From Methylobacterium sp. C25 (GTDB lineage Bacteria; Pseudomonadota; Alphaproteobacteria; Rhizobiales; Beijerinckiaceae), in contig NZ_JAAUVI010000004.1 in NCBI RefSeq assembly GCF_021352225.1, positions 248,001-312,000 on the forward strand: a stretch of DNA of 64,000 nucleotides. The letters are read 5' to 3'. Made by a program: the position numbers and the translations under genes. The notes beneath the pieces were generated by a model. That model saw only the letters and a program-made list of their open reading frames with translations, ran no database searches and had not been told where the DNA came from. This document shows positions 20,365-62,853 of this stretch, piece by piece (position 1 is the first letter of the stretch; the number at the start of each line of letters is the position of its first letter).

Positions 20365-20814
20365 CTACCCCTCGATCAGCGCCCAGTTCGCCCGAGCGAT
20401 GGGCGCAATGCGCATGCCGTGCGGCACCGCCATGTCCGGTGGGGGTCGGCGCAGGGCCTGTTCGAGAAAAGCCAGGGTATCTTCGAGCGCGCTGCCCGAG
20501 AAGGGTTTGGCGATCACCGCGGCTGCGCCTTCGAGATCACCGGTGAGCTGGCGCGAGTTGGCTGTGATGAACACGCAGGTAATTCCGCCGATGCCAAGCG
20601 CGGCTTGCGCTACTGCGACGCCGGAGGAACCGTCGGCTAGGCGCAGATCGACGAAGACGAGATCGGGCCGCGTTTCACGAAGAAGCGCAACGCCTTCTTC
20701 GGCACGCACTGCTGTCCCGACGATGAGGTGGCCGGCATCCTCCAGCAGCATTTCGAGCTGCATCAGGATGAGGGCCTCGTCCTCGACCAGCAGCACCCGC
20801 AATGGTTCGCTCAC
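20365..20814 (-). CDS. Single-domain response regulator paired with the LOV kinase (LovR-like)
   Basis: A 149-residue receiver-domain protein. It has the acidic pair and opening [19 protein letters not shown], the phosphoacceptor Asp in [14 protein letters not shown], the switch Thr in VFITANS and the lysine in VIAKPFSG; no output domain follows, only a short proline-rich tail. The GTG start at 20814 overlaps the kinase stop by four bases, so the two are co-translated. In Caulobacter the equivalent LovR drains phosphate and lowers the general stress response; the same role here is inference. Confidence 0.82.
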
Positions 20815-21938
20815 CGAGTCTCCGATCTGACTGCCGATTCGCGTGGCAGTCTGACGTGGACGGCCGTGCCGGGATCGGCCGCGCGCCATGTGATACTGGC
20901 GTTCAACTGGCGGGCAAGGGTTTCGATCAGACGCTTGCCGAAGGAGCGTTGCCCGGAGCGTTGGTCGAGGTCCGGCATTCCGACGCCGTCATCCTTGACC
21001 TCGATCACGATGGAGGTCTCGCCGGGAATCACGGCAATCGAGAGCCTTCCGGGCCGGCCATCCGGGAAAGCATGCCGGAGGACGTTGGTGACGATCTCGT
21101 TCAGGACGAGCGCGATCGGTGGCGCCTTGGCAACCGGCACCTCGACGGCCTCGACGTCGAAATGCAGACGGATGTCGTTGCGCCCGAGCCCGCGCACCAA
21201 ATCGCTCGTGAGGTCACGCACGAACTCCGTCACGTCGAAGCGCTCGACGTCGTTCGACTGGTAGAGCCGACGATGCACCGTGCCGAGTGCCTCGACGCGC
21301 TTGAGCATGTCTTCCATCGTGGCGCGCGCCGTCGGGTCGGTAATGGTGCGCGTCTGCAGCGCCAGCAGCGAGGCAACCATCTGGAGGTTGTTCTTGACCC
21401 GGTGGTCGACCTCATGGAGCAGCATGGTCTTGGCGGCGAGAGCCTCGCTCAGCTCGCGTGTGCGCTTGGCGACCTCGCGTTCGAAATGCTCCTTCTCGCT
21501 CCATGTTTTCAAATGCGCGTCGATACGATCGGTCACGTCGACCTGCGAGGCGAAGTAGTAGAGCACCTCGCCGGCTTCGTTCGAAACGGGGCTGATGTAG
21601 AGCGCGTTCCAGAACGGCGTCCCATCCTTGCGATAGTTCAGCACATCGATGGCAATGTCGCGTTTCGCCTCGGTAGCCTCGCGGATCTGGCGTACGGCGC
21701 CCTTGTCCGTCTCTGGCCCCTGCAGGAAGCGGCAGTTCTGTCCCATGATCTCGTCGCGGTCGTAACCGGTCAGCGAGAGGAAGGCGTCGTTGACGTAGAC
21801 GATCGGATTGTCGGCCTGGCGCGGGTCGGTGATGATCATCGGCATGCGGGTGCCGCGCACCGCAGCGGCGAATGGATCGCCCTTGCCGGTCTCGGCTTGC
21901 AATCGATCGGTCTGCCGCCAGGCGTCGTCGCGTTCCAT
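20811..21938 (-). CDS. LOV-domain blue-light sensor histidine kinase (HWE/HisKA_2 class)
   Basis: A soluble 375-residue kinase. The N-terminal PAS domain carries the flavin-adduct signature GQNCRFLQG (Cys about residue 69) together with [11 protein letters not shown] and the final Gln in FASQVDVT, all marks of a photoactive LOV domain. A coiled linker leads to [14 protein letters not shown] (phosphorylated His about 179) and an ATPase part with [13 protein letters not shown] and [10 protein letters not shown]. The layout equals Caulobacter LovK and Brucella LOV-HK. I chose the ATG at 21938, which has AGGACAGG upstream; the frame is open to 21971. The light response probably feeds the PhyR/EcfG stress pathway, by analogy. 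Confidence 0.88.
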
Positions 21939-22319
21939 CCCGTCCTGTCCTCTTCGGACCTGCCGCTGCAACTGCGGCCCACCGGTCCGGTGATCCGGCC
22001 TTCGCGACCCGTAGTCAATTCAAGCGTCGCGGCTCGCGAACCTTGCCCGGCTAAGGACCGCCGTAACGTTCAAGAGCCGGGTAGTGCCGAGAGGGCCACC
22101 GGACTTCGAGATGCCGTGCTGATCCCGGCGCGGCGATAAGATCGGATTACGGGAGCCGCTGCACTTTGAAATCCGATCGGCAAACGATGCCCTGCCTGCC
22201 GCACTTCGAACAGGCATGCATGTTTTGCTGGCAGAGCCAGCCGCTCTGGTAGGGGGCTGAACGGAACTGTTTCGTATCTGCTGCTAAGGTCAAACTGGGA
22301 CAGAAAGTTAGAGTCGTTG
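21939..22319. other. Intergenic region between the LOV kinase and the cysteine-rich protein
   Basis: I see no gene here. It should contain the divergent promoters of the LOV kinase and the small exported protein at 22320. No convincing GGAAC-N17-CGTT (EcfG) box was found; a lone GGAAC occurs near 22262 without a matching -10. Confidence 0.35.
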
Positions 22320-22620: not shown

Positions 22621-23304
22621 TCAGCCGCCTTCGGGCTCGACGAGAGCATAGACCGCCTCGCCCATTCGCTTGAGTGGTCCACCCGTTCCAGAGCGCTTCC
22701 AGAGCCGGGTATTCAGCGCAGCGACAGGATCGTGACCCGGCAGCGAAAACCCCTGGCCGGTCAGCACCGTCAGGATCTCGCTCGCATGAAGCGGTCGACC
22801 AGCGTCTTGAAGCACGCCCAGAGCCGCCTCGATCAAAGCGCGGCCATAGCGCCGAGCGAGGACGCCTTCGGACAGCCCTTCTTCGGCGGAATCGTGTGTT
22901 GGCTGGGGCGCCGATCGCACCGGCGCGCTCGGAGCCTTCGGCGAACCGCGTTCGAAGCTCGGCGGAACCGGAGAGGCAGAGCGCAGCGAGGGCTCGGCCG
23001 TTCGACCGGCGTCCGACGTCACGGAAGCTGGCGGAAAGGCGGTGCCTTCCGAAGAGGCGCGACCTGCTCCATGGCCGGCATTGTTGTCTGGCTCTCCCGC
23101 GACGAAGGCCGTTCCCCGACCTGGTGCAGACGCGGTGTCTGTATCGCCACGGGCGACGGTGGCCTCGGTCGTCAGCCGACGTCCGAGTTCGAGATAGAGC
23201 GTCAAATCGGCGATCGCACGATCGAGTGTCTCGCGCTGTCGGCGCAAAGATGCGAGCTGCGCTTCAGCTTCGTCTTCAGACAGCACCATCGTGACATGAA
23301 CCAT
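22621..23304 (-). CDS. Unrecognised protein with coiled-coil start and probable C-terminal winged helix
   Basis: A 227-residue protein in three parts. Residues 8 to 45 form a likely coiled coil (EDEAEAQLASLRRQRETLDR). About 50 to 140 is a low-complexity, disordered Ser/Pro/Ala-rich linker. Residues 150 to 225 (ALIEAALGVLQDAGRPLHAS, EILTVLTGQGF, ALNTRLWKRSG, GEAVYALVEPEG) read like a HARE-HTH/HB1-type winged helix, a fold associated with DNA-binding. Highly structured DNA lies just upstream (separate entries) and the repA gene follows 200 bp away on the same strand, so a role in the replicon or in local regulation is possible. No firm homologue recalled. Confidence 0.6.
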   Translation of the reverse strand: MVHVTMVLSEDEAEAQLASLRRQRETLDRAIADLTLYLELGRRLTTEATVARGDTDTASAPGRGTAFVAGEPDNNAGHGAGRASSEGTAFPPASVTSDAGRTAEPSLRSASPVPPSFERGSPKAPSAPVRSAPQPTHDSAEEGLSEGVLARRYGRALIEAALGVLQDAGRPLHASEILTVLTGQGFSLPGHDPVAALNTRLWKRSGTGGPLKRMGEAVYALVEPEGG

Positions 23305-23348
23305 AGGTTGTTCCGACCAGCCCGGACCGGTCGATTCCGGAACAACCT
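23305..23348 (-). promoter_or_regulatory. Long inverted repeat abutting the start codon of the winged-helix-like gene
   Basis: AGGTTGTTCC (23305-23314) and GGAACAACCT (23339-23348) are a perfect 10-bp inverted repeat separated by 24 bases. One arm touches the ATG of the gene at 23304. In the transcript this would form a hairpin covering the only candidate ribosome-binding sequence (GGAA), and as DNA it is a plausible operator. Which of the two applies is unknown. Confidence 0.5.
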
Positions 23349-23350
23349 AA

Positions 23351-23443
23351 TGGAATATTCCAAACATGTCTATCGACCCTTCTATTCCTACCTGTGGGGC
23401 AATTAGAATAAGCCCCAAGGACATGAGCCTGCATGGAATATTC
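23351..23443. repeat. Two copies of TGGAATATTC, one a full GGAATATTCC palindrome
   Basis: TGGAATATTC occurs at 23351-23360 (where it extends to the perfect palindrome GGAATATTCC) and again at 23434-23443, 83 bp apart. A related TGGAATATA lies at 25159-25167 near the iterons. Between the first two is a hairpin, GGGGC-N11-GCCCC (about 23396-23416). Possible binding sites for a regulator of the winged-helix-like or repA gene. Confidence 0.4.
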
Positions 23444-23507
23444 TGTAATGAAATTACTTTTAATTGCAATCGCTTAGATGGCAGACGCTCTTGGCATCCT
23501 GAGAATA

Positions 23508-24644
23508 TCAAGCAGCCTTCTGCTTCTTCCTGGATATTCCGATGACTTTCGGAGGAACAATCAGAACGTTGGGGTCAGCCGGATTGAGCTGCATTCCGCG
23601 TTCGTCGAGGCTGACCGGAAGGCGCGGAAATATCTCAAGCACGCCCGCGAGATCGGCTTTGAAGGCCTGCCGGAAGCTGCGCTGGCTCGCATTGTCCGCA
23701 CCGAACTGCCGGTGGAGATTATCCCAGGTAAGCCTCAGCGGCCGTTGTAGGGCGCGCAGTCGGTATCCGACCCAGAACAGCAGATCGAGTTTGCGCGCCG
23801 AGCCAGACAGTGCCCGTGCCGCACGAATATCAACCGGCAAGGCGTGCTTGATCAGGCTCTCGTAGAAATCCTGGTGGAATTGCACTTCGCGCTGCCAGAC
23901 GACCTCCCCCGCACCTTGAGGCCGCCACAGGTCGAGCTTTCGGAAAGGCGGAACGGTGAGCGTCGAGGCGGTCTCACGACCGTCCCACAGGCCAATCTGC
24001 ATCGAGCAGGCCGCGAGACGATTCAGCTGCTCCTTGAAAGCGCCGATGGTCCCACGTTCACCGCCCGTTACCGCAAAGCCCATTTCGCGCATGAAGCCGG
24101 AGAGACTGTCGGCCACAGCGATGACCGGGCTGCGCTGACGCACGGCTTCGGTGCAAAGATGCAGGAGCACCAGGCGCGCCTTGGGCCCGAAGGGCAGTCC
24201 TTGCGCCTCCATCTCTCCCGTCACCGGGTTTTTTAGACGGCCCGCGCTCAAGCTCAGGGAGTTGCGTCCATATTCGCGCACCACCTCTCGCACTGGACCC
24301 GGGTCCCGATAAGGAAGGCCGCAGAGTGCCAGTACCGAGTGGATGTGCTGCAGGTTTTCCGGCACCGCCGGCTCGTTCTCGATGACCTCACGAACGGCAT
24401 CGCGACGGCGTTGATCACGACCCATGACGTCGCGCCGGATTTTTTGTGTCGTCTCGAGCGCCGCTCTGTCGTCCCGCTCGCGTTGGCGGAACAGGATGTG
24501 CTCGACGATCTGAGCGAACAGAAATCCACCGCGTGCGGCTTCGAGCTCGGCACGCAGATCCGGGTCTCGAATCTGATCGATCTTCTGCTCGAGCCCCGAC
24601 ATTCCCGTTCCGCGATCTTGGTCCCGACCACCTGGCCCCATCAT
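23508..24644 (-). CDS. repA: Plasmid-type replication initiator RepA
   Basis: RepA proteins of this family (Pfam RPA, PF04796 type) bind iterons and open a theta origin. The 378-residue reading contains LKNPVTGEMEAQGLPFGPKARLVLLHLCTEAV (shown by its parts GLPFGPKARLVLLHL and CTEAVRQRSPVI), DSLSGFMREMGF, and GTIGAFKEQLNRLAACSMQI, the conserved RepA block; the C-terminal half (LDLLFWVGYRL, LTWDNLHRQFG, FRQAFKADL) is a winged-helix-like region. A basic patch, GISRKKQKAA, ends it. The start is uncertain: ATGs at 24644, 24641 and 24602 are in frame, and the frame is open to 24845 into the iterons. No parA or parB lies nearby. Confidence 0.82.
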   Translation of the reverse strand: MMGPGGRDQDRGTGMSGLEQKIDQIRDPDLRAELEAARGGFLFAQIVEHILFRQRERDDRAALETTQKIRRDVMGRDQRRRDAVREVIENEPAVPENLQHIHSVLALCGLPYRDPGPVREVVREYGRNSLSLSAGRLKNPVTGEMEAQGLPFGPKARLVLLHLCTEAVRQRSPVIAVADSLSGFMREMGFAVTGGERGTIGAFKEQLNRLAACSMQIGLWDGRETASTLTVPPFRKLDLWRPQGAGEVVWQREVQFHQDFYESLIKHALPVDIRAARALSGSARKLDLLFWVGYRLRALQRPLRLTWDNLHRQFGADNASQRSFRQAFKADLAGVLEIFPRLPVSLDERGMQLNPADPNVLIVPPKVIGISRKKQKAA

Positions 24645-24693: not shown

Positions 24694-25005
24694 CGCAGAG
24701 TCCCGTGTCGGATGCGCGTTATCCCGGCTTTCCCCGCTTCTCGATGCCGGCAATCCCCAGACCGTTGCATCGAGACATCGCTCGCAGAGTCCAATGCAGC
24801 AAACACCCGGCCATTGCGTCTACGCAGAGTTCGATACGGGGCCAATCGCGCAACTCATCCCCGGAATGCACAGGCAAAGCCGATTTTGCGCGCCGAATTC
24901 GATGCGGGATCACGCAGAGTTTTATGCAAGGACCGCTGAACGAAGCGCAGAATCCCATACGCCGGAACGCTGAATCCGATACGAAGTTACGCAGAACCCA
25001 ATACG
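24694..25005. repeat. Iteron array upstream of repA
   Basis: Eight related 16-bp repeats, consensus CGCAGARTYCVATACG, all in the same direction, start at 24694, 24783, 24823, 24891, 24913, 24946, 24968 and 24990. The last three are spaced exactly 22 bp apart, as is the pair 24891 and 24913, placing them on one face of the helix (two turns). Best-conserved copies are those at 24823, 24946, 24968 and 24990. The group lies directly before repA, the classical position for RepA iterons. Four copies (24694, 24783, 24946, 24968) contain a GANTC site. Confidence 0.75.
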
Positions 25006-25038
25006 AACATCCAGATTAAAGCTTTGAATTATATGAGG

Positions 25039-25203
25039 TTTCAGCGATCCCATATAACATGCTGAAATGACTCTCTTAAAGAGAGTGATCTGATATATTT
25101 CCTATGATGGGGAAGCACTGTCCGCCGCAGCGAACTGGCGTATTCCGTTTTGAATTTATGGAATATACGGAATTGTCCACAAACTGACGGGCAGTTATCC
25201 AAC
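25039..25203. other. AT-rich, palindrome-dense putative origin core
   Basis: Next to the iterons: an inverted repeat TTTCAGC/GCTGAAA (25039-25067), the 17-bp palindrome ACTCTCTT-A-AAGAGAGT (25070-25086), an AT-rich run, an inverted repeat ATTCCGT/ACGGAAT (25142-25173), the DnaA-box-like TTGTCCACA (25173-25181, one mismatch to TTATCCACA) and TTATCCAAC (25195-25203). This combination is what an iteron-type origin is expected to have. Experimental origin activity is not shown by sequence. Confidence 0.5.
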
Positions 25204-25244: not shown

Positions 25245-26114
25245 ATGGACGTTTGGAACGAAACCGGTACGACGGTGCGCATGAAGAACCGTTCGATCGA
25301 TACCCTCCTTTGCCTCATGGCGACGCTGCGGGATCCGGTTCGGGGCTGTTCCTGGGATGTCATACAGACCCCGGCCAGCATCGTGCCCTTCACCATCGAG
25401 GAGGCATATGAAGTCGCGGATGCGATCGACCGGGGGGATCACGACGATCTGCGTGACGAACTCGGGGATCTTCTGCTGCAGGTGGTCTTCCAGTCCCGGA
25501 TGGCGGAGGAAGCCGGGACGTTCACGTTTGCGGATGTCGTCGAAAGCATCGTCGGCAAGCTCGTGCGCCGTCACCCTCACGTCTTCGACGTGAACGGGTC
25601 ACCTTTGCCGATGGATCAGCGTGTCGAAGACCCACGCGCGGTGGAAGCTGCCTGGCAGCGCATCAAGGCTCAGGAGCGAGCCGAAAAGGAGAGGCGGACA
25701 GGCGGGCGAAACCCCGCTGCCTCTCCGCTCGGCGACGTGCCGCTGGTCCTGCCGGCTCTCAAGCGTGCGGAGAAAATCTCACGCAAGGCTGCCGGTTACG
25801 GATTTGATTGGCCGAACACGCATGACGTGATCGCCAAGGTTCGCGAAGAGGCCGACGAGGTCGAAGACAGTTTGCGGCAGGGCGACTCGAAGGCAATTGC
25901 CGAAGAGATCGGAGACCTACTGTTCTCGGTGGCAAATCTCGCACGGCATGCTGGCGTGGATGCGGAGGAAGCGCTGAGACAGGGGACTCGGAAGTTCGAG
26001 CGCCGGTTCGCGGCGATGGCCCAGCGTCTCGCCGGGCAGGGCCATGCTCTGTCGTCGAGTGACCTACCCGCGATGGAAGCAGCTTGGCAGGCCGTCAAGC
26101 GGGACGAAGCCTGA
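25245..26114 (+). CDS. mazG: Nucleoside triphosphate pyrophosphohydrolase MazG
   Basis: Hydrolyses (d)NTPs to monophosphates and pyrophosphate, cleaning the nucleotide pool. The 289-residue protein has two MazG units: EEAYEVADAIDRGDHDDLRDELGDLL with the metal-binding EExxE/ExxD pattern in the first half, and EEADEVEDSL ... EEIGDLLFSVANLARH in the second; the linking RRHPHVFD is diagnostic. Starts at 25245 and 25281 are both possible. The first domain begins shortly after the second ATG. It is divergent from the repA/iteron block. Confidence 0.9.
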   Translation: MDVWNETGTTVRMKNRSIDTLLCLMATLRDPVRGCSWDVIQTPASIVPFTIEEAYEVADAIDRGDHDDLRDELGDLLLQVVFQSRMAEEAGTFTFADVVESIVGKLVRRHPHVFDVNGSPLPMDQRVEDPRAVEAAWQRIKAQERAEKERRTGGRNPAASPLGDVPLVLPALKRAEKISRKAAGYGFDWPNTHDVIAKVREEADEVEDSLRQGDSKAIAEEIGDLLFSVANLARHAGVDAEEALRQGTRKFERRFAAMAQRLAGQGHALSSSDLPAMEAAWQAVKRDEA

Positions 26115-39363: not shown

Positions 39364-39395
39364 AAAAGGCCGGGCAGCACTGCCCGGCCTTTTTT
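39364..39395. terminator. Strong bidirectional terminator between hspQ and the ialB-family gene
   Basis: Arms AAAAGGCCGGGCAG (39364-39377) and CTGCCCGGCCTTTT (39380-39393) form a 14-bp hairpin with a CA loop and T run. The A run on the left makes it work for the convergent gene too. Confidence 0.88.
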
Positions 39396-39457
39396 CGTGA
39401 TCGATGAGGCTGCGCGCCTCGGCCCGATGACTCGGGCCGAGGCCATGACCGGAAAAC

Positions 39458-62821: not shown

Positions 62822-62853
62822 ATGCCGGCGCGGATCTCCGCGCCGGCATTTTT
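62822..62853 (+). terminator. Intrinsic terminator of xoxF
   Basis: ATGCCGGCGCGGA (62822-62834) and TCCGCGCCGGCAT (62837-62849) are a perfect 13-bp stem with a TC loop followed by T residues, 24 bp after the xoxF stop. It separates xoxF from the convergent glmS and probably serves both directions. Confidence 0.88.

Follow-up and report, generated by a model that had tools for sequence, protein, structure and literature searches.

The window analyzed here, a 64-kb stretch located on a 432-kb contig of a 5.19 Mb Methylobacterium genome, contains a small gene for a predicted winged-helix protein, preceded on the same strand by the replication initiator gene repA, an array of iterons and an A+T-rich block. 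Short GGAAY half-sites cluster between the two genes and, more sparsely, beyond the iterons. The 227-codon open reading frame (ORF) of the original prediction was confirmed in the ORF list of the window at 22621-23304 (-). In 39/40 congener orthologues the start codon aligned to residue 6 of this ORF (ATG 23289-23287), not to residue 1, and residues 1-5 were not common to the 34 orthologues whose leaders were inspected. Based on this start alignment and on the family alignment, the true start is probably at 23289, five codons later, so that the gene would span 22621-23289 (-) and encode 222 residues plus stop, with the five extra codons (23290-23304, -) probably untranslated. The gene was present in all 59 Methylobacterium genomes searched, counting one (G014) in which a contig end leaves just the N-terminal part. 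Downstream of it the window encodes a HWE/HisKA_2 histidine kinase with a PAS domain (20365-21971, -), which overlaps an ORF reading like a response regulator.

The architecture that had been proposed for the protein, a long helix followed by a disordered linker and a C-terminal winged helix, was recovered by AlphaFold (41 sequences; mean pLDDT 75.8, pTM 0.46). The predicted N-terminal helix, likely a coiled coil, covers residues 10-53 (23146-23277, -), with residues 11-50 forming a block of pLDDT 90-98. In the model of the C-terminal domain (residues 146-227; 22624-22869, -), three helices (146-168, 174-183 and 193-204) are followed by a two-stranded wing (211-215 and 218-221), as expected for a winged helix. 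The linker is variable in the family alignment, and the invariant residues group in the N-terminal helix and the C-terminal domain. VIA-align gave Z scores up to 9.8 against winged helices, which according to the tool's own note is little above unrelated models. Foldseek retrieved no match for the predicted model at E ≤ 0.001, the best matches being the Z-nucleic-acid-binding winged helices of ZBP1 (E = 0.022). By sequence, the Pfam family HARE-HTH (PF05066) matched 39/41 family members at E ≤ 0.1 (best 2.7e-9), with similarity across most of the domain in several of them, and 5 of the 10 members checked singly passed the gathering cut-off. The window protein itself matched weakly (residues 156-184) and scored 17.4 bits, below the cut-off of 25.9. 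The hallmark of HARE-HTH, as given in excerpts of PMC11037411, is an extra helix inserted in the helix-turn-helix; the single AlphaFold prediction differs in having a loop (residues 184-192, no helix of at least 4 residues) between helices 2 and 3. The models and these matches thus support a winged-helix-like fold for the C-terminal domain.

Sequence searches of plasmid, phage, viral-contig, NCBIfam, PHROGs and solved-structure sequences did not retrieve the layout of coiled coil, linker and winged helix in known proteins. No relative of the protein was found in plasmids, phages or viral contigs and no match in NCBIfam; PHROGs gave one insignificant match, and a sequence search of solved structures had no hit with E under 0.3. 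In draws of 297 genomes of the order, each holding 6 congeners that all matched, the only matches outside the genus were weak ones, in 4/297 genomes with a single sequence and 3/297 with a profile. A contig scan across genomes gave one locus with the winged-helix gene, in M. brachythecii.

The gene upstream, repA (23508-24602, -; likely start ATG 24602-24600), encodes a 364-residue protein of the RepA_C family (PF04796; E = 1.1e-18, 68.6 bits, above the curated cut-off of 26). Its position upstream of the winged-helix gene on the same strand, noted earlier, is seen in the window. The adjacency check covered 44 genomes, taking in the window's own and all but sixteen of the 59. In 42 of the 44, repA lies directly upstream of the winged-helix gene; in G039 the two are 1.7 kb apart, with repA again upstream, and in G057 a contig end cuts the locus off. 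The two genes are therefore found together, side by side or nearby, in 43/43 testable genomes. Within the order (297 genomes), repA was found in 6/6 congeners, in 0/6 other members of the family and in 10/285 other genomes. RepA is under strong purifying selection (dN/dS of 0.01-0.17 in 12 chosen pairs), and the constraint on the winged-helix protein is weaker (0.13-0.61, 12 chosen pairs).

Upstream of repA, and not noted in the original prediction, are seven iterons with 15-base cores, all in one orientation (24783-25004, -; at 24783, 24823, 24891, 24913, 24946, 24968 and 24990). Repeats resembling GYATCGRAYTCTGCG occur at this place in a single orientation across the genus, with 6 copies in 9 loci and 7 copies in 31 loci. 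In 38 kb of such DNA they gave 271 matches, compared to 4 on the opposite strand; 264 kb of other DNA gave 43, counting both strands. Spacings one to four read 22-22-33-22 in 40/40 loci, and the fifth and sixth vary over 66-79 and 31-62, respectively. Beyond the iterons lies an A+T-rich, partly conserved block (25035-25125), delineated by column conservation over the 40 loci and by comparison by eye with plasmid origins; it is likely to be an unwinding region or the repA promoter. It is followed in the window by three GGAAY half-sites (25142, 25160 and 25169) and one DnaA-box-like sequence, TTGTCCACA (25173-25181), together spanning 25142-25181. Half-sites beyond the iterons were seen in 40/40 loci (1-7 per locus), and a DnaA-like box in only 6/40, so that we rejected DnaA boxes as a conserved part of the locus. 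A divergent ORF, which we take to be mazG-like, flanks the origin (25245-26114, +), with relatives at the same place in 26/41 loci.

Many of the iterons contain GANTC, the site methylated by CcrM. The iteron stretch holds 180 such sites vs 26 expected, and repA holds 44 vs 121 expected. Overall 149/271 iterons carry the site, mostly the third, fourth and fifth (in 34, 39 and 29 of 40 loci, respectively), and in the window 3 of the 7 do. A CcrM-type RAMA domain was found once per genome in 13/13 genomes. We rejected GANTC iterons as a mark of domestication, since 3/10 plasmids carry the site in 6/6 iterons. In Vibrio, the initiator RctB is described in excerpts of PMC5603330 as binding ori2 only when it is methylated; the parallel with the GANTC iterons is suggestive only.

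A total of 844 plasmid records had a match to RepA, all under 60% identical, and we compared ten of these loci, mostly the top-ranked ones. In all ten an iteron array lies downstream of repA, and plasmid and chromosomal arrays, read along the CGCAGA strand, show the same order, with repA alone turned round. The spacings are 65-67, 22, 32-33, 22-23 and 22-23 in the plasmids and 66-79, 22, 33, 22 and 22 in Methylobacterium. In the comparison by eye, the DNA after the plasmid arrays is rich in A+T and contains TATATA as well as recurring CAGAA motifs, and the chromosomal arrays are followed by a block containing TATATAA. The Methylobacterium locus thus shares its RepA family and iteron order with RepA_C iteron plasmids of Hyphomicrobiales (Xanthobacter, Bradyrhizobium, Mesorhizobium, Agrobacterium). 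It differs from them in being chromosomal and genus-wide, in having repA flipped relative to the array, in lacking the parA that lies beside repA in the plasmid relatives with upstream sequence, in carrying the GGAAY array and the winged-helix gene, and in a RepA at most ~50% identical to that of the plasmids. In complete congeners it lies on the main chromosome contig, not on a plasmid. The conserved iteron spacing, the likeness to plasmid origins and the purifying selection on RepA lead us to consider the locus almost certainly a domesticated plasmid replicon, consisting of an iteron origin and RepA, which became fixed in the Methylobacterium chromosome.

The leader of the winged-helix gene had been singled out for a perfect 10-bp inverted repeat touching the start codon. 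The repeat is present and in fact extends over 12 bp (TAGGTTGTTCCG at 23304-23315 and CGGAACAACCTA at 23338-23349, with 22 nt between the arms), but it does not touch the probable start, which lies 15 nt from its end. In the 64-kb window, perfect 12-bp inverted repeats with gaps of up to 40 nt have 7 start positions, which fall in 4 separate places, as compared to 0-3 start positions in 20 dinucleotide shuffles; the occurrence of such a repeat by chance within the ~220-bp gap is therefore unlikely. Three other perfect inverted repeats of at least 12 bp (39364-39393, 39416-39443 and 62822-62849) are possibly terminators. The repeat is not conserved as a perfect unit, being absent at the corresponding place in the 34 orthologous leaders inspected, and so fails the refutation test that had been set for it; what stands there instead is an operator-like array of GGAAY half-sites, of which each arm of the repeat holds one.

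In the window this array comprises seven GGAAY/RTTCC sites between the two genes (23290-23507; at 23310, 23334, 23339, 23352, 23357, 23384 and 23435). Half-sites of the form GGAAT or GGAAC, in both orientations, are common to the leaders. Across 40 loci the gap between repA and the winged-helix gene contains 346 of them, where shuffled DNA predicts 34, and every locus exceeds its expectation (a smaller count over 33 loci gave 314 vs 29). The corresponding numbers are 112 vs 53 in the mazG-side gap (26 loci), 201 vs 123 within repA, 64 vs 46 within the winged-helix gene and 70 vs 48 in the 500 bp downstream of it. As a control, 297 other gaps, taken from 800 kb of a congener and from the window (leaving out the window's own repA gap, which is covered by a called ORF), contained 346 half-sites vs 308 expected, and the repA gap of that congener ranked first among the gaps scored. 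Among 17,034 windows of 300 bp sampled from the 64-kb window and from the congener G018, the densest stretch in the former is the array, with 10 half-sites; in G018 the array reaches 6 per 300 bp and two other sampled stretches reach 7. A second GGAAY-rich gap lies in G018 about 3 kb beyond the winged-helix gene (C1:4293036-4293628; 7 half-sites vs 2.2 expected).

Within 80 nt upstream of the gene, 29/40 loci contain an inverted pair RTTCC...GGAAY (0.3 expected), and beyond the iterons 20/40 contain a tandem RTTCC pair (0.1 expected). The order and spacing of the half-sites vary widely between loci, which is unusual for a classical operator. The sequence GGAATATTCC was rejected as a required unit, as it is present in only 20/41 loci; its only other occurrence in the source genome (contig C9:69690) has no long clear ORF in its surroundings. 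Since the array and the winged-helix protein are never separate within the genus, the link between them is one of co-occurrence only.

In 10 of 12 complete congener genomes repA lies 19.5-312 kb from the best dif-like site (at most 22 kb in four). In these 10 genomes repA is read in the direction of dif, the side on which the winged-helix gene lies; as the 12 genomes are related, this amounts to one inherited position more than to ten observations. The circular distance between parB and repA is 0.43-0.50 of the chromosome length in 9/12 genomes, the outliers being G036 (0.35), G024 (0.21) and G026 (0.11). G026 fits by its dif-like site (20 kb); G024 has two candidate dif-like sites about 1.9 and 2.4 Mb from repA, and G036 three weak candidates, the nearest at 0.57 Mb. 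No dif-like site was found within the 64-kb window.

We further examined replication polarity in G018 using GGGNAGGG, a motif known from E. coli. In 40 sampled 20-kb stretches it is mostly forward between ~2.16 and 4.5 Mb; outside this range the reverse orientation prevails, some stretches are mixed, and there is no flip at repA. In this genome parB lies at 1.93 Mb, the dif-like site at 4.59 Mb and repA at 4.29 Mb. Judging from polarity and parB, contig C1 has its main origin at ~1.9-2.1 Mb and its terminus at ~4.6 Mb, and we rejected the locus as the main chromosomal origin. Strand-balanced third-position GC skew in G018 scatters around zero and is too weak to indicate firing. The dnaA gene of G018, at 1 kb, is far from the main origin placed in this way. 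In the excerpts of papers on M. oryzae and M. extorquens, dnaA marks the origin (PMC4161386, PMC2680597), by convention in the case of M. extorquens AM1 and DM4, where no GC skew was seen (PMC2680597).

The winged-helix protein had been proposed to regulate the adjacent replicon. This remains plausible and is supported in part, given that repA and the gene are kept together and that both are genus-wide; the anatomy given for the repeat and the start was not borne out. For the stress role proposed as an option, the analysis turned up nothing in favor. An even chance seems right to us for the full explanation, in which the domesticated replicon carries the 222-residue protein as its resident DNA-binding regulator. 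The protein would dimerize through its N-terminal helix, and its winged helix, judging from position, fold and co-occurrence, would bind the GGAAY half-sites that cover the leader of its own gene and those, fewer in number, on the far side of the iterons. Binding to the array may repress the protein's own gene and, in a step further removed, the protein may act on RepA or on the origin as a copy-control brake, which would let a plasmid-type origin persist in a chromosome. Adenine methylation at GANTC in many of the iterons could tie the binding of RepA to the cell cycle.

Other readings of the leader were considered. That the inverted repeat forms an RNA hairpin hiding the ribosome-binding site, as originally suggested, is highly improbable: the window leader folds with a z value of -2.35 and near relatives show four stem-loops, but over 40 loci folding is only weakly better than in shuffles (mean z of -1.21, with 7 below -2), the repeat sequence is not conserved among the leaders inspected, and the corrected start lies 15 nt from it. 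On these z values the perfect repeat is also a weak candidate for a conserved hairpin. Alternatively, the array could be the binding site of RepA or of a host protein, with the winged-helix protein merely encoded downstream and having another job. The association of array and protein through co-occurrence leaves room for such a reading, and half-sites are also found around the origin and slightly above expectation in repA; we nevertheless hold it to be unlikely, since no dense array is seen in plasmids that share the type of RepA and the iterons and do not carry the gene (10/10 plasmid relatives, 0-4 half-sites per 500 bp).

The location near dif bears on two further alternatives. The protein could replace the plasmid's ParA-linked partition protein, with the array serving as a centromere and perhaps organizing the terminus. 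An irregular multi-site array in both orientations, the absence from the Methylobacterium locus of the parA found in plasmid relatives, and the proximity to dif in 10/12 complete genomes are in line with such a role; the predicted winged-helix fold of the protein, the lack of an evident ATPase partner among the ORFs of the immediate neighborhood, and the two genomes of 12 without a terminus position make it quite improbable. It is somewhat easier to imagine, though still doubtful, that the origin is dead and that RepA and the iterons survive as a transcription regulator and its operator set, with the winged-helix protein as co-regulator. The location near the terminus and the absence of a polarity flip at repA in G018 would fit a silent origin. 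Against this, the iterons agree in order and exact spacing with plasmid origins that look functional, and A+T-rich DNA is kept beside them; together this exceeds what simple repression requires.

Methylobacterium chromosomes may also possess a second working plasmid-type origin near the terminus, gated by CcrM methylation of the iterons and by a new family of winged-helix controllers bracketing it at GGAAY sites. We put this forward tentatively, as a possibility with more against it than for it. By the usual account a bacterial chromosome has a single origin; a second one near the terminus would blur leading-strand bias. Exact iteron spacing kept genus-wide, usually near the terminus, points either to such a lasting second origin or to a new use of an initiator and its iterons, and the winged-helix family offers a handle on how a plasmid-type chromosomal origin would be restrained. 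It is the replicon, rather than the inverted repeat, that appears to be the part worth following.

The exceptions to the one-origin rule that we found in print are, in the excerpts available, individual fused strains (PMC6284228, PMC12153318). In Vibrio cholerae NSCV1 and NSCV2 a single chromosome carries oriC and a plasmid-type ori2 (excerpts of PMC6284228 and PMC5603330), resembling our case in having a plasmid-type iteron origin inside a chromosome with a main origin; as described there, these are rare, recent fusions of whole chromosomes, whereas the Methylobacterium locus is a compact, genus-wide putative origin. Fused Agrobacterium chromosomes, in the same order of bacteria, have two active origins (excerpts of PMC12153318); those are large replicon fusions of individual strains with demonstrated activity, while the second origin of Methylobacterium is putative. 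In a full-text literature search, judged by titles and the beginnings of abstracts, no paper dealt with an iteron-type repA in the Methylobacterium chromosome. The absence of GC skew noted for M. extorquens (excerpts of PMC2680597) could owe something to a second origin, as it could to other causes. The chromosome contig of G024 has a further RepA_C gene next to one of the ParB family (C1:688777-690751), perhaps as part of a recently integrated plasmid.
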